Shown here one piece after another: positions 28,766-34,600 of a stretch of 64,000 nucleotides of DNA (positions are counted from its first letter, which is position 1; each line of letters opens with the position of its first letter). The position numbers and the translations under genes are program-made. Location of the stretch: NCBI GenBank assembly GCA_021809495.1, contig JAKAZI010000001.1, positions 19,406 through 83,405 of the forward strand, in the 5' to 3' direction. Origin of the DNA: Actinomycetes bacterium (GTDB lineage Bacteria; Actinomycetota; Acidimicrobiia; Acidimicrobiales; RAAP-2). Under the pieces are notes generated by a model that saw nothing but the letters and a program-made list of their open reading frames with translations, had not been told where the DNA came from and searched no databases.

Positions 28766-28812
28766 CCAGACAACGGCGAAACGCTCGCGTACTTCGGGCC
28801 CAGGGTGAGAGC

Positions 28813-28854
28813 GGCTCGGCGACGGACCCGTCTGAGCCCGACCGTCGTCGAGCC
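28813..28854 (+). terminator. Hairpin after truA, probable end of the alpha operon
   Basis: GGCTCGGCGACGG (28813-28825) pairs with CCGTCGTCGAGCC (28842-28854): 13 bp with one G-U, around a 16-nt loop. It lies about 50 bp past the truA stop. No U-tract follows. It separates the ribosomal operon from the sulfur cassette. Confidence 0.5.
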
Positions 28855-28991
28855 GACGACACCGGGCGTCCGCGAGTGCGCCGCGACAACGGCACGCGCG
28901 GTGGCGTCCGAGCTGTCAACCGGCTGACGGGTGGCGGATCTCCTCTGTAATAAATAGGGAGAAACTATAAGACGTGACAAATACCAATGAT

Positions 28992-29005
28992 GGGACTTTG
29001 GGCCC
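28992..29005. promoter_or_regulatory. DosR-box-like operator upstream of the sulfur cassette
   Basis: GGGACTTTGGGCCC matches the core GGGACTWWAGTCCC of the published mycobacterial DosR box at 12 of 14 positions; the outer flanks do not match. Its centre is about 43 bp before the presumed leaderless start at 29042, so it abuts the -35 region, where a class II activator would bind. A DosR-like regulator is encoded 6 kb upstream. Confidence 0.45.
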
Positions 29006-29028
29006 TGTTCGCGCGAGAGCGGGCTTCG

Positions 29029-29034
29029 TACGCT
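29029..29034 (+). promoter_or_regulatory. -10 box for a leaderless transcript of the sulfur cassette
   Basis: TACGCT lies 7 bp before the ATG at 29042, so transcription would start at or next to the start codon. No convincing Shine-Dalgarno is present. An AT-rich patch with TATAAG at 28966-28971 is a second possible -10 further upstream. Confidence 0.4.
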
Positions 29035-29041
29035 CAGGTTT

Positions 29042-29743
29042 ATGCAAGACATGCAACGCAGCAGGCAGAGTGTGCAGCACCTGGCACCAGCACGCGACTT
29101 CCTGAGCGCGCAAGAGGTAGGGCAGTTGCTCAAGGTCGATCGTTCCACGGTCTATCGGATGGCCGAGAGCGGGGGACTGCCCTCCGTGAAGGTGGGCCGA
29201 CAGTGGCGGTTCCCCGCCGCCGCGATCGAGCGCCTGCTGCGAACCGGTGAGCGCGTCGGCGCAACGACCCGCGAAGACCGCGAGGCCATGGTGCGCGCGG
29301 TCGGTTCGTCCCTGCCGCTGATCGAGCTCTCGGCCCAACTGCTCGGGGTCATGATGATCGCGACCGACATGGACGGACAGCCCGTGACCGACCTCGTCAA
29401 CCCCTGCGGGTGGTTCGCCCAGCACGCCGAGGACCAGGGTTTCGTGTCGACCTGCCTGGGCTACTGGAAGCAGCTCGCCGACGACCCGGACTTCGACGTC
29501 CGCTTCCACCTCGGACCGCTCAACGTCGAGTGCGCGCGCACCTTCGTGCGGGTGGGCACGCAGCTCGTCGGCATGCTCTTCGTCGGCGGCATCGATCCGA
29601 CGGGCGAGGACGAGCGACCGCTCTATCGGCTCAACGCCGAAGGTCGGACCCGGGTGCTGACGTACCTGCCGGCCGTCGCCGCGGCGATTTCGCGGCTCGC
29701 GGCGCAACCACGTACGAGCGTCGAGACAGGGAGGACCATATGA
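29042..29743 (+). CDS. HTH (excisionase-type) transcription regulator fused to a PocR-like sensory domain
   Basis: A 233-residue predicted regulator. Residues 20-66 form an excisionase/MerR-like helix-turn-helix (FLSAQEVGQLLKVDRSTVYR, then RQWRFPAAAIERLL). Residues 90-215 resemble the PocR ligand-binding domain: GVMMIATDMDGQPVTDLVNP followed by C122, C138 and C164. PocR domains bind small organic or metal ligands; the three cysteines could suit sulfur or redox sensing, which is inference. It is the first gene of the cassette and overlaps the SQR-like gene by 4 bp, so it may control its own operon. Confidence 0.72.
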   Translation: MQDMQRSRQSVQHLAPARDFLSAQEVGQLLKVDRSTVYRMAESGGLPSVKVGRQWRFPAAAIERLLRTGERVGATTREDREAMVRAVGSSLPLIELSAQLLGVMMIATDMDGQPVTDLVNPCGWFAQHAEDQGFVSTCLGYWKQLADDPDFDVRFHLGPLNVECARTFVRVGTQLVGMLFVGGIDPTGEDERPLYRLNAEGRTRVLTYLPAVAAAISRLAAQPRTSVETGRTI

Positions 29744-30981
29744 AACGGCTTCTGATACTGGGCGGCGGGACTGCCGGAACGATGGCGGCGAACCGCCTTC
29801 GCAAGCGGCTCGACCGCGCCGAATGGGAGATCACGGTCGTGGACCAGAACGAGGCCCACGTCTACCAACCCGGGAACCTGTTCGTGCCCTTTGGCATCTA
29901 CGAGCCGAACGATCTGGTGAAGCCGCGTCGCCGGTTCTTGCCCGAGGGGGTGGAGCTGGTGCTCGGCGAGATCGATCGCGTCGAGCCCGAGGACAACCGC
30001 GTCGTGCTCGCCGACGAGCGGGTGCTCGCCTACGACTACCTGATCATCGCCACGGGCACCTCGCCGCGCCCCGACCAGACGCCGGGCATGCTCGGGCCAC
30101 AGTGGCGAAAGAGCATCCACGAGTTCTACACGCTCGAGGGTGCGACGGCCCTGGCCGACACGCTCGCCGACTGGCAGGGTGGGCGCATGGTCGTGCACAT
30201 CGTGGACATGCCCATCAAGTGCCCCGTCGCGCCGCTCGAGTTCACGTTCCTCGCCGACGCGTTCTTCACCGAACGAGCGATGCGCGACCGGGTGGAACTG
30301 GTGTTCGTGACGCCGCTCGACGGTGCGTTCACCAAGCCGATCGCCTCCAAGCACCTCGGCGGAATCCTCGAGGAGCGCGGGGTCAGCCTCGAGAGCGACT
30401 TCATGGTCGAACGCATCGACGCCGACGCGAAGACGCTCGTCTCCTTTGACGAGCGCGAGGTCCCCTTCGACCTGCTCGTCACCATCCCGCTCAACATGGG
30501 CGCGGACTACGTGGCGCGCTCGGGTCTGGGTGACGACCTCAACTACGTGCCCGTCGACAAGCAGACGCTGCTCGCCAAGGGTTACGACAACATCTTCGCG
30601 CTCGGTGACGCCTCGGACATCCCGACCTCCAAGGCCGGCTCGGTCGCCCACTTCTCGATCGAGTTGTTCGAGGACAACTTCATCAGCCACATCCACGGTC
30701 GTCCCATGACCAAGCTCTTCGACGGCCACGCCAACTGCTTCATCGAATCCGGCCACGGCAAGGGCATGCTCATCGACTTCAACTACGACACCGAGCCGCT
30801 GCCCGGCAAGTACCCACTGCCCGGCTTCGGCCCGTTCAGCCTGCTGCGCGAGTCCGAGGCGAACCACTGGGGCAAGATGACCTTCCGCTGGGTCTACTGG
30901 AACCTGCTGCTCACCGGTAAGGAGATGCCCTTCGAGCCACTGATGTCGATGGCCGGCAAAGAGGTCGAGGTGCACGCATGA
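29740..30981 (+). CDS. Sulfide:quinone oxidoreductase-like FAD flavoprotein
   Basis: A 413-residue pyridine-nucleotide-disulfide-family enzyme. The start is ATG 29740 after GGGAGGA; the track start lies inside the previous gene. It has the FAD-binding LLILGGGTAGTMAANRLRKR, ATG motif YLIIATGTSPRP and FALGDASDIPTSKAG. Only two cysteines occur, C161 in MPIKCPVAPLE and C333 in GHANCFIES. They align with the redox disulfide of SQR, and the third SQR cysteine is absent. Predicted function is oxidation of sulfide or a persulfide with electrons passed to quinone at the membrane. NADH dehydrogenase-like activity is the alternative. Confidence 0.8.
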   Translation: MKRLLILGGGTAGTMAANRLRKRLDRAEWEITVVDQNEAHVYQPGNLFVPFGIYEPNDLVKPRRRFLPEGVELVLGEIDRVEPEDNRVVLADERVLAYDYLIIATGTSPRPDQTPGMLGPQWRKSIHEFYTLEGATALADTLADWQGGRMVVHIVDMPIKCPVAPLEFTFLADAFFTERAMRDRVELVFVTPLDGAFTKPIASKHLGGILEERGVSLESDFMVERIDADAKTLVSFDEREVPFDLLVTIPLNMGADYVARSGLGDDLNYVPVDKQTLLAKGYDNIFALGDASDIPTSKAGSVAHFSIELFEDNFISHIHGRPMTKLFDGHANCFIESGHGKGMLIDFNYDTEPLPGKYPLPGFGPFSLLRESEANHWGKMTFRWVYWNLLLTGKEMPFEPLMSMAGKEVEVHA

Positions 30982-31700
30982 GCGTCACGACCTCGCCAAC
31001 CGTGGAAGAACGCCTCGAGCGCATGGCCGAGCAACTCGCCGAGGTCACCGACGAGTTGCGCCGCCAGCGCGAGAGCCGCGAGCGCTGGCAGGAACTGCTC
31101 GACGACCTCGCGCCACTCGCCGAACAGGCGATGTCCACCACCATCAGCCACCTCGACCTCGACTCGAGCGACGTGGAGAATCTGTTCAACCTCGCCCACA
31201 CCTTCGCGCGCAACGCGTCGGTGCTCGAGGCGTGGATCGGCCCGCTGCGCTCGATGTCGGCACTGGCCGAGGAGCTGGCCCCGCTCGCCACCCCCGCCGT
31301 CGCCAGTCTGAACGAGCGACTCCAGCAGCTCGACGAGCGGGGCTACTTCGCCTTCGCCCGGCGCAGCGTCGACGTGCTGGACAACGTGGTGACCTCCTTT
31401 AGCGAAGAGGACGTCAGGTTGCTCGGCGAGAACATCGTGCTCATCCTCCAGACGATCAGACAGATGACCCAACCCGAGGTCATGGGCATGCTTTCGCGCA
31501 CCGCGCTGACCATGCAGCAAGAGGAGCCGGCGGCCGAGGCGCCGTCGCTTCGCGGGCTCGTGCGACAGTTCCGCGACCCGCTGGTGCGCCACGGACTCGC
31601 CCGGACCCTCGTCGCGCTGCGATCGGTGGGTGCGGAGTCGAACCGGCGACGCGAGCCAGATACGCAAGCGACGCCTGATCAGAAGAGCAAGAGGAGGTAG
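30978..31700 (+). CDS. DUF1641 family protein
   Basis: A 240-residue helical protein. A coiled-coil-prone N-terminus (VEERLERMAEQLAEVTDELR) is followed by the DUF1641-like LGENIVLILQTIRQMTQPEV with MGMLSRTAL. DUF1641 proteins are known from neighbourhoods of SQR-like flavoproteins and formate dehydrogenases, but the biochemical role is unknown. It could be a membrane-surface or quinone-interaction partner of the SQR-like enzyme, which is inference. It overlaps the preceding gene by 4 bp, and GAGGAGG-like GAGGTAG precedes the next gene. Confidence 0.75.
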   Translation: MSVTTSPTVEERLERMAEQLAEVTDELRRQRESRERWQELLDDLAPLAEQAMSTTISHLDLDSSDVENLFNLAHTFARNASVLEAWIGPLRSMSALAEELAPLATPAVASLNERLQQLDERGYFAFARRSVDVLDNVVTSFSEEDVRLLGENIVLILQTIRQMTQPEVMGMLSRTALTMQQEEPAAEAPSLRGLVRQFRDPLVRHGLARTLVALRSVGAESNRRREPDTQATPDQKSKRR

Positions 31701-31705
31701 TCATC

Positions 31706-32020
31706 ATGACCACAGCGACAATCAACGGCAGCGAAGTCCACGTCGACGCGGAGGGTTTCCTGACCGACTACGACGAGTGGACGGAGGAACTGGCGCAGGT
31801 GCTCGCCGCGAACATCGGCATCGAGCTGACCGACGAGCACTGGGACGTCATTCGCTTCCTGCGCGAGGACTTCCCCCGCCAGGGCGAGACGGCGACGATC
31901 CGGCGCACGTCAACGGTGGGCGGCTTTGACACCAAGAGGCTGTTCGTACTGTTCCCGAAGAAGCCGGCGAAGAAGATGGCCTACATCGCTGGACTGCCCA
32001 AGCCGAGGGGCTGCGTGTAA
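31706..32020 (+). CDS. tusE: TusE/DsrC-family sulfur-transfer protein with a single C-terminal cysteine
   Basis: A 104-residue DsrC/TusE/DsvC-fold protein. The core reads TDYDEWTEELAQVLAANIGI and ELTDEHWDVIRFLRED, and the C-terminal arm is YIAGLPKPRGCV. The penultimate C103 is the conserved persulfide-carrying cysteine. The second DsrC cysteine, 11 residues earlier, is replaced by Ala (MAYIAGLP). This is the TusE-like condition, so it likely relays a persulfide and does not make the intramolecular trisulfide used with dissimilatory sulfite reductase. AAGAGGAGG-like AAGAGGAGGTAG precedes the ATG. Confidence 0.88.
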   Translation: MTTATINGSEVHVDAEGFLTDYDEWTEELAQVLAANIGIELTDEHWDVIRFLREDFPRQGETATIRRTSTVGGFDTKRLFVLFPKKPAKKMAYIAGLPKPRGCV

Positions 32021-32043
32021 CAACCGAAAGAGGAGGCAACGCA

Positions 32044-32559
32044 ATGACTGAAGAGAAGGTCGAATCGACCGCGCCGGTACCGAATTTCGATGGGGGCGAG
32101 ACGGATCGCAAACTCGCCATCATCTGTTCCAAGGGCAATCTCGACATGGCCTACCCCGGGCTGGTGCTCGGCAACGCCGCCCTCGGTGAGGGCATCGAGG
32201 TCCACCTGTTCTTCACCTTCTGGGGATTCGACATGATCACCAAGAAGCGCATGAACAACCTGAAGTTGACGCCGCTCGGCAACACCGCGATGCACATGCC
32301 CCAGGGACTCGGCGGCGTGCCGGGCGTGACGGCGATGGCGACCGCGATGATGCGCAAGCAGATCGAGGCCGTTGGCGTGCCCGAGGTGCCGGACTTCCTC
32401 GAGCAGATCGTGGCGTCGGGCGGACACCTGTGGGCGTGCAAGATGTCGGCGGACATGATGAAGCTTGAAAAGGACGATCTCTACGACGCCGTCGAGGGGA
32501 TTATCAACGCGAGCGACTTCATCGAAATCGCCGACGGAGCCCAGCTCCTGTTCATCTAG
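32044..32559 (+). CDS. DsrE-like (DsrE2/DrsE family) sulfur carrier
   Basis: A 171-residue DsrE/DsrF-superfamily protein. It begins with a flexible N-terminus, then KLAIICSKGNLDMAYPGLVL, VHLFFTFWGFDMI and GGHLWACKMSADMM. Cysteines C28 and C132 are both in family-conserved positions; the ACKMS cysteine is the likely persulfide carrier. Its placement beside a TusE-like protein mirrors established sulfur-relay systems (DsrE to TusE/DsrC). AGAGGAGGC precedes the ATG. It is the last gene of the cassette and is followed by a small hairpin. Confidence 0.85.
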   Translation: MTEEKVESTAPVPNFDGGETDRKLAIICSKGNLDMAYPGLVLGNAALGEGIEVHLFFTFWGFDMITKKRMNNLKLTPLGNTAMHMPQGLGGVPGVTAMATAMMRKQIEAVGVPEVPDFLEQIVASGGHLWACKMSADMMKLEKDDLYDAVEGIINASDFIEIADGAQLLFI

Positions 32560-32656: not shown

Positions 32657-34600
32657 GTGACTTTCGAGACCCCCGGCACCGACACCTTCGACCTGGACCC
32701 GTCCATCCGGCCCCAGGACGACCTCTTTCGCCACGTCAACCAGCGGTGGTTCGACGCGACACCCATCCCCGAGGACCGCGCCAGCTACGGCACCTTCTGG
32801 CTGCTCGCCGAGGCCGCCGAGCGCAGCGTGCGCGAGATCGTCGAGGCGGCGCGCGACGCGCAGCCCGGGACCGAAGCGCGCAAACTCGGCGACCTCTACG
32901 CGAGCTTCCTCGACGAGGCGCGTCTCGAGTCCCTGGGGGTGGCACCGATCGCACCGACGCTCGCGGCCGCACAGGCCCTCACCTCGATTCCTGGTTTTCT
33001 CACCCTGGTCGGCTCGCTCGAGCGCGAGGGCCTCGCCGGTTTCTACCAACTCTTCGTGGACAATGACCCGGGCGACCCCACGCGCTACCTCGTCTTTCTC
33101 GAACAGGGCGGCCTGTCGCTGCCCGATGAGAGCTACTACCGCGAAGAGCACTTCGCCGAGGTTCGAGCCGCCTTCGTCGCCCACGTCGCGCGCAGCCTGG
33201 AACTCGCCGGGCTCGACGACGCCGCGGCGCGCGCGCAGCGGGTGATGGCCCTCGAGACCGAACTGGCCGGCGGACACTGGGACACCGTGCGCTCGCGCGA
33301 CGTCAGCGCCACCTACAACCTGGTGACCCGCGACGCCTGGCTGGCCCAGGCACCGGTACTCGCCGACTGGGTCGACACCGTCGGCTCGGCACCCTTTGGC
33401 GAACTCGTGCTTCGCCAGCCGAGCTTCACCGCCACCCTCGCGGCGATGCTCGACGAGGCGCGCCTGGAGTCCTGGCGCGACTGGCTGACCTGGCAGGTGG
33501 TGCGCGGCGCGTCACCGTACCTGTCCGCGGACTTCGTCAACGCCCACTTCGACTTCTACGGCCGCACCCTCACCGGCGCACCGGAGCTGCGCGCGCGCTG
33601 GAAGCGCGCCGTCGCCCTCGTCGAGGGCGCGATGGGCGAAGCGGTCGGGCACCTCTACGTGGAGCGACACTTCGCCCCCGAGGCCAAGGCCCGCATGGAC
33701 GAGCTCGTGGCGAACCTGATCGAGGCCTACCGAGCGTCGATCGCGCAACTCGACTGGATGGGACCCGCGACGCGTGAGCGGGCCCTGGCCAAGCTCGACG
33801 CCTTCACCCCCAAGATCGGCTACCCGCCGCGGTGGCGGGACTACTCGGCGCTGAGCGTCGCCGCGGGCGACCTGATGGGCAGCGTGCGCGCGGCCAGCGC
33901 CTTCGAGTTCGACCGCCAGATGGCCAAGATCGGCCAGCCGGTCGACCATGACGAGTGGTTCATGACCCCCCAGACGGTGAACGCCTACTACAACCCGGGG
34001 ATGAACGAGATCGTCTTTCCCGCGGCGATCCTCCAGCCCCCCTTCTTCGACGCGAACCGCGACGACGCCGCCAACTACGGCGCGATCGGGGCCGTGATTG
34101 GCCACGAGATCGGTCACGGCTTCGACGACCAGGGTTCGAAGTTCGACGGGTCGGGTCGTCTCGCCGACTGGTGGGACGACGAGGACCGCGCGGCCTTCGA
34201 GGCGCGCACGAAGGCCCTGATCGACCAGTACGACGCCCTGGTGCCGCGCGAGGTCCCCGGCCAGCACGTGAACGGGGGACTCACGATCGGCGAGAACATC
34301 GGCGACCTCGGCGGACTGGCCATCGCGTGGCGCGCCTACCGGCTCGCGTGCGCCGACGCCGACCCCGTGATCGACGGACGCACGAGCGCCGAGCGGTTCC
34401 TGTTCGCCTGGGCCGTGAGCTGGCGCCACATCGCCCGGCCGCCCGAGGTCGAGCGCCTGCTCGCGATCGATCCCCACAGTCCGCCAGAATTCCGCTGTAA
34501 CCAGGTAGTACGGAATTTGGACGTCTTCTACGACGCCTTCGGGGTCGCGCCGGGGGACGCTTTGTGGCTCGATCCGAGCGAGCGCGTCGCGATCTGGTAG
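32657..34600 (+). CDS. M13 family (neprilysin-like) zinc metallopeptidase
   Basis: A 647-residue oligopeptidase. The zinc site is H483 and H487 of IGHEIGHGF with E546 in GENIGDLGGL. The substrate-binding block VNAYYNPGMNEIVFPAAILQ and the C-terminal EFRCNQVVRNLDVFYDAFGV are typical of the family. No signal peptide or transmembrane anchor is seen, so it probably acts in the cytosol or is released without a Sec signal. The GTG start at 32657 lies 7 bp after a TAGGCT -10 box, suggesting a leaderless message. It has its own transcription unit between the sulfur cassette and rplM. Confidence 0.93.
   Translation: MTFETPGTDTFDLDPSIRPQDDLFRHVNQRWFDATPIPEDRASYGTFWLLAEAAERSVREIVEAARDAQPGTEARKLGDLYASFLDEARLESLGVAPIAPTLAAAQALTSIPGFLTLVGSLEREGLAGFYQLFVDNDPGDPTRYLVFLEQGGLSLPDESYYREEHFAEVRAAFVAHVARSLELAGLDDAAARAQRVMALETELAGGHWDTVRSRDVSATYNLVTRDAWLAQAPVLADWVDTVGSAPFGELVLRQPSFTATLAAMLDEARLESWRDWLTWQVVRGASPYLSADFVNAHFDFYGRTLTGAPELRARWKRAVALVEGAMGEAVGHLYVERHFAPEAKARMDELVANLIEAYRASIAQLDWMGPATRERALAKLDAFTPKIGYPPRWRDYSALSVAAGDLMGSVRAASAFEFDRQMAKIGQPVDHDEWFMTPQTVNAYYNPGMNEIVFPAAILQPPFFDANRDDAANYGAIGAVIGHEIGHGFDDQGSKFDGSGRLADWWDDEDRAAFEARTKALIDQYDALVPREVPGQHVNGGLTIGENIGDLGGLAIAWRAYRLACADADPVIDGRTSAERFLFAWAVSWRHIARPPEVERLLAIDPHSPPEFRCNQVVRNLDVFYDAFGVAPGDALWLDPSERVAIW

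Follow-up and report, generated by a model that had tools for sequence, protein, structure and literature searches.

Among the closest described systems is the DsrEFH-DsrC relay of Allochromatium vinosum, in which a persulfide on Cys78 of DsrE is transferred to Cys111 of DsrC and not back (PMC3397948), together with the TusBCD-TusE relay for transfer RNA (tRNA) thiolation in Escherichia coli; on the side of electron transfer, ForE is required by the formate dehydrogenase ForC for menaquinone reduction as well as menaquinone binding (PMC8808070). In this article, I compare with these systems a cassette of five genes at positions 29042 to 32559 of a 64,000-nucleotide stretch (hereafter the window) of contig JAKAZI010000001.1 from the acidimicrobial genome GCA_021809495.1, encoding a regulator, a flavoprotein resembling sulfide:quinone oxidoreductase (SQR), a DUF1641 protein and two putative sulfur carriers of the TusE/DsrC and DsrE types. 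All of these parts belong to known families, and it is their combination and distribution, as an SQR module that brings along a dedicated relay of TusE and DsrE, that appear new; no description of the cassette was found in the literature searched, the coverage of which was partial, and so far it appears undescribed. The cassette bears on two questions, namely which acceptor bacterial SQR hands its sulfur to and what purpose DsrC/TusE proteins serve where DsrAB is absent, and one compact operon, also found in cultured Nocardioides, Kribbella and Micromonospora, joins both and is open to protein and deletion tests.

The reading that I favor, with a probability of about 0.6, is that of a sulfide-oxidation module with its own protein sulfur relay, in which (mena)quinone would receive the electrons from SQR, coupling would be provided by the DUF1641 protein and sulfur would move from DsrE to TusE. 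Gene identities, conserved cysteines, gene order, co-occurrence and the unit of insertion were computed here, and they suggest the following scheme for the catalytic and transfer steps and their direction, for DUF1641 and for the ligand of the regulator. SQR would oxidise H2S to persulfide at Cys161 and Cys333 via flavin adenine dinucleotide (FAD) and pass two electrons to (mena)quinone, while the DUF1641 protein may bind SQR and aid its docking to the membrane or quinone, the part that ForE plays for ForC. Rather than simply being released, the sulfane sulfur would be taken by Cys132 of DsrE and passed to Cys103 on the swinging C-terminal arm of the TusE-type carrier, which would deliver it to an acceptor encoded elsewhere (candidates are mycothiol, a rhodanese/persulfide dioxygenase, TusA-Hdr or tRNA thiolation), and the helix-turn-helix (HTH)/PocR-like protein would use its cysteines to detect sulfide or persulfide and would switch the operon. 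It is possible, and I offer this more tentatively, that the TusE/DsrC-family carrier and DsrE are the dedicated, direct protein acceptor of SQR sulfur, with a ForE-like subunit coupling to menaquinone, in a Dsr- and Hdr-independent, portable route spread over Actinomycetota, Chloroflexota and Deinococcota. If true, a dedicated role in accepting SQR sulfur would account for orphan DsrC-family genes in genomes without DsrAB, and DUF1641 quinone-coupling subunits would be extended from formate dehydrogenase to sulfide oxidation. The features are as follows.

28766-29041, + strand: intergenic, presumed promoter/operator; AT-rich near 28940-28990
29042-29743, + strand: HTH_17 and PocR-like regulator, 233 residues (HTH_17, E=8e-15)
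29740-30981, + strand: type III SQR, 413 residues, ATG at 29740 (NF049943)
30978-31700, + strand: DUF1641 (ForE-like) all-helical protein, 240 residues (PF07849 in relatives)
31706-32020, + strand: TusE-type DsrC-family carrier, 104 residues (PF04358, E=4e-33; TIGR03342)
32044-32559, + strand: DsrE2-like (DsrE_2) sulfurtransferase, 171 residues (PF13686, E=2.6e-33)

Gene order, distribution and portability

The sequence and gene calls confirm what an earlier note on this DNA had read from it, that is, five genes on the same strand with junctions, in order, of a 4-base-pair (bp) overlap, another 4-bp overlap, a 5-bp gap and a 23-bp gap, and AGGAGG-like ribosome sites can be read directly 5' of the DsrC/TusE and DsrE genes. 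The same note had seen no dissimilatory sulfite reductase or Hdr genes beside the cassette, and indeed no Dsr or Hdr gene adjoins the five. It had also asked whether the gene order is conserved beyond one strain, which proved to be the case: among 110 loci collected by SQR similarity alone (the basis of the order and cysteine counts given below), TusE follows SQR in 108 and DsrE is present in 107, the few absences seen being contig ends, and the order SQR-(DUF1641)-TusE-DsrE is found in Actinomycetota, Chloroflexota and Deinococcota. Two forms can be distinguished. The four- or five-gene form occurs in Acidimicrobiia, Kineosporiaceae, Chloroflexota and one Trueperaceae metagenome-assembled genome (MAG), and a three-gene form without DUF1641 and usually without the regulator, in which TusE typically starts 20-130 bp after SQR, occurs in Nocardioides, Kribbella, Micromonosporaceae, Intrasporangiaceae and others. 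About half of the cassettes lack DUF1641 or the regulator, and the presence of DUF1641 on the SQR tree requires only about five changes (two of the DUF1641-less rows are cut by a contig end).

Since the 110 loci were picked by SQR identity, an unselected set of 397 Actinomycetota genomes, chosen regardless of the cassette, was also considered. With the two Dsr-bearing families (f31 and f34) set aside, this SQR is present in 27 genomes from 18 families, and every one of them has a DsrC-family gene within 1 kilobase (kb) on the same strand; conversely, 27 of the 30 genomes with a DsrC-family gene carry it in the cassette. Two of the three other cases (G417 and G508) apparently lie in a dsr locus, an assignment made from neighbouring reading frames, with a CobB/DsrN-like protein in one, and the third (G493) belongs to a cassette in which SQR is broken. 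This last locus (L152) retains TusE-DsrE beside an SQR fragment and seems to be in decay or to carry a frameshift. The gene arrangement is thus far beyond chance. Furthermore, the DsrC-family gene of the cassette is the only one in the genome in 12/12 cassette genomes tested, the window genome likewise, and dsrA over the cut-off was found in none of these 12, with no match at all in the window's genome.

The cassette is also a real, portable unit. In the window genome and one relative (G132), the five genes are flanked by truA and an M13 peptidase gene, and in two other relatives (G122 and G075) these two genes adjoin, about 55 bp apart with no cassette between them, so that the inserted block is exactly five genes; several other congeners have truA next to rplM, and G095 carries the set at a different site (L166). 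In the window's subclade the M13 (neprilysin-type) peptidase gene itself (window 32657-34600) separates truA from rplM-rpsI, and it is missing from the truA/rplM site in several other congeners. Among close relatives the cassette is patchy, with 35/150 genomes over the cut-off. The nearest named loci belong to Actinomycetota MAGs, L031 (JA1.bin36) and L032 (Acidimicrobiaceae), which places the source of the window among uncultured members of this group, and to judge from such MAG collections the host presumably comes from acid drainage; the cassette hints that sulfide oxidation has been overlooked in Actinomycetota of soil and acid drainage.

The flavoprotein and its DUF1641 partner

By family score and invariant redox cysteines the flavoprotein is SQR-like, as the earlier note had labeled it, and sulfide:quinone activity is predicted from its sequence. 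It matches NF049943, whose full title is "type III sulfide quinone reductase, selenoprotein subtype", over residues 2-408, that is, at full length, with 640.8 bits against a cut-off of 525 (E=8.5e-193), and like that family it has an FAD domain and both redox cysteines, Cys161 (codon 30220-30222) and Cys333 (codon 30736-30738), each present in 110/110 cassette SQRs. The closest solved structures are those of human mitochondrial SQR (E=1.7e-42), whose catalytic pair of redox cysteines aligns with Cys161 and Cys333. The window protein differs from the selenocysteine subtype of the model in that it is the Cys form, with TGC at 30736-30738, and in that its gene is accompanied by a dedicated TusE-DsrE pair. 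NF049943 scores such Cys forms over its cut-off despite its name, so automatic annotation may label ordinary Cys proteins as selenoproteins.

True selenocysteine forms do exist nearby. A search of the phylum found seven SQRs of a sister branch, confined to one Actinomycetota family, with an in-frame UGA exactly at the position of Cys333 (DGHAN-C-F in the Cys form, DGHAT-U-F in the branch; loci L125-L128, L130, L142 and L144, with wider context in L154 and L156-L161), and the HxxU motif listed for this SQR family is consistent with the UGA position (PMC13188914). The replacement marks Cys333 as a redox residue. Paralogues of SQR scoring about 220 bits were also considered as selenocysteine forms with in-frame TGA and were rejected, the TGA in L114 and L115 being a normal stop beyond the end of the protein. 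Five of the selenocysteine branch genomes have dsrEFH within a few kb of the SQR gene (in four cases with aprBA and HdrA/QmoA-like genes nearby as well), and in a sixth a divergent dsrC adjoins it, which connects this SQR with the same sulfur relay independently of the cassette. More distant members of the family, from haloarchaea and Chlorohelix (about 33-38% identical, and the only relatives in the plasmid collection), have tusA directly upstream and in one case DUF1641 directly downstream. This SQR clade therefore teams repeatedly with persulfide carriers. The haloarchaeal case most like the cassette (L162, from a Halobaculum plasmid) has SQR beside both a sulfur carrier and DUF1641, but the carrier is TusA rather than TusE-DsrE and the SQR is 37% identical. 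In L162 and in L164 (a Haloarcula plasmid) tusA overlaps the SQR gene, and in L162 SQR and DUF1641 are followed by a second FAD oxidoreductase with its own DUF1641, so that two-domain flavoproteins are repeatedly followed by DUF1641 at these loci.

The DUF1641 label, given in the earlier note, stands at the level of the family and not for the window protein alone, which scores 15.9 bits against PF07849 (gathering cut-off 21), while 36/36 of its relatives are matched at E<=1 (best 4.6e-11). A profile of these 36 finds ForE1 (PDB 8rqz) at E=9e-6 and only weakly matches YjlC, which has also been deposited as "NDH-2 membrane coupling protein", at E=0.014-0.025. NDH-2 and SQR are both flavoproteins of the superfamily with two dinucleotide-binding domains. 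Because of the homology to ForE and its function, the match to the NDH-2 coupling protein and this shared superfamily, the DUF1641 protein likely couples SQR to the membrane or quinone, by analogy. As in ForCE (PMC8808070; PDB 8rqz), a DUF1641 gene adjoins that of a quinone-linked dehydrogenase, but here the partner is a flavoprotein SQR and the window protein has a long N-terminal helical extension. The AlphaFold model of the DUF1641 protein is uninformative, with a predicted local distance difference test (pLDDT) score of 75 and a predicted template-modelling (pTM) score of 0.35, and Foldseek returned no usable match to it. The membership of NDH-2 in the superfamily, and the fact that a DUF1641-like protein also partners an NDH-2, might be taken to mean that the SQR label is wrong and that the flavoprotein is a dehydrogenase of NADH or another substrate; in view of the 640 bits to NF049943 and the invariant SQR cysteines, one of them replaced by selenocysteine in relatives, I find this hardly credible.

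The TusE-DsrE pair and the fate of sulfur

The TusE-type carrier belongs to the TusE/DsrC/DsvC family (TIGR03342, 86.7 bits against a cut-off of 53.5). The only cysteine of its C-terminal arm is the penultimate Cys103 (32012-32014), kept in 106/108, and the second DsrC cysteine (Cys100 type) is missing, the position being Ala92 in the window carrier and Ala or Ser in 107/108; the same loss was reported in DsrC-family proteins of organisms without DsrAB (PMC3397948). The DsrE-type protein meets the wider PF13686 family, does not reach the cut-off of the DsrE2 equivalog NF047629 (112 against 210 bits), and has a conserved Cys132 (32437-32439) in 104/107, the remaining three being gaps. The pair shares with the Allochromatium relay (PMC3397948) a DsrE-type donor with an active cysteine and a DsrC-family acceptor with a penultimate cysteine, and from this likeness transfer would run from DsrE to TusE. 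Unlike that relay, however, the cassette is without DsrF, DsrH and DsrAB, has a single DsrE2-like protein and a carrier without the second DsrC cysteine, and ties the relay to SQR. The single C-terminal cysteine is also the carrier type of the E. coli TusBCD-TusE relay, but no TusB, TusC or TusD genes are in the cassette, the partner is SQR, and the carrier scores 76.7 bits against the E. coli TusE equivalog NF008562, far under its cut-off of 191.

TusE and DsrE evolve as a pair, since their distances correlate with r=0.79, and with a partial r=0.72 after SQR distances are removed (0/500 permutations). In three loci (L036-L038) the SQR is 75-77% identical to that of the window, but the TusE-DsrE pair comes from another, distant lineage (43-48% identical), and thus TusE and DsrE were swapped together while SQR stayed. 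This tight coupling, and the finding of the selenocysteine branch among apr, qmo-like and dsrEFH genes, would also suit a relay running in reverse, with DsrE and TusE supplying the flavoprotein with a thiol or persulfide bound to protein and the flavoprotein oxidising the carrier (or reducing it with quinol), as DsrMK acts on the DsrC trisulfide; yet the second cysteine that a DsrC trisulfide needs is the one missing (Ala or Ser in 107/108) and the SQR retains both SQR redox cysteines, which makes this distinctly unlikely. The persulfide of SQR could instead be put to biosynthetic use, with DsrE and TusE feeding tRNA thiolation (MnmA) or cofactor assembly in place of a TusBCD-like route, given that in E. 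coli it is TusE that supplies MnmA with sulfur (PMC3397948) and that the cassette carrier, with Ala92, is of the TusE type. I consider this unlikely, as patchiness among close relatives (35/150 genomes) is not expected of a basic tRNA modification, and one would hardly expect it to be paired with a quinone-linked oxidase.

Several observations weigh against the sulfide-oxidation module. Small molecules are known to serve SQR as acceptors, which might leave the carriers a secondary role; the cassette flanks hold, apart from cassette genes, no conserved gene that would name the final sulfur acceptor, so this downstream step is not conserved there; TusA was found in only 7/12 cassette genomes and is therefore not a general next step; the three-gene form shows DUF1641 to be dispensable, and not essential to the chemistry; and the YjlC link is weak. 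What stands of the earlier interpretation is a conserved cassette of SQR, persulfide carriers, DUF1641 partner and three-cysteine regulator without a tie to Dsr, and the term "self-contained" goes too far, because the sulfur end point lies outside the cassette and DUF1641 and the regulator are not core.

Genes of the persulfide dioxygenase-rhodanese type adjoin the cassette in a few loci (L063, L079 and L180), an OsmC-like gene is beside dsrE in L180, and OsmC-like and thioredoxin genes are present in L039. Such dioxygenase neighbours would fit ordinary sulfide detoxification, in which SQR sulfur goes to a low-molecular-weight thiol (mycothiol) and DsrE and TusE merely buffer or sense persulfide, but the carriers are in practically every cassette, with dioxygenase genes beside few, and the carrier cysteines are nearly invariant, so I regard this as very unlikely. 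With respect to the sHdr sulfur-oxidation pathway, the module differs in having no hdrB/CCG genes adjoining the cassette; HdrA-like genes are found elsewhere, at a second sulfur-carrier locus of the window's genome (L178; G000:C18:23000-34000, on another contig, near its end) that reads TusA-DsrE2-HdrA-like-HdrA-like, with one HdrA-like protein fused to a GltD-like domain. The CCG/HdrB domain was not found in the window genome, which is 89% complete, nor in G132.

Regulator and upstream region

Similar to DUF1641, the PocR label of the earlier note holds for the family, with 28/29 relatives matched (best 7e-20), and not for the window regulator alone, which scores 11.7 bits against PF10114 (gathering cut-off 23.9). 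The note's further description of a cysteine-bearing regulator is borne out by three conserved cysteines, Cys122 (29405-29407) in 32/37, Cys138 (29453-29455) in 34/37 and Cys164 (29531-29533) in 31/37, through which it may sense sulfide or persulfide. Its structure is predicted confidently, with a pLDDT of 90, and the Foldseek matches to IclR-type regulators are weak (template-modelling score about 0.3). In the region 28766-29041, a consensus scan found no sigma-70 consensus and alignment with four relatives showed no clear conservation. Three Chloroflexota cassettes (L089, L108 and L110) have an ArsR-like gene upstream in place of the HTH/PocR-like regulator.

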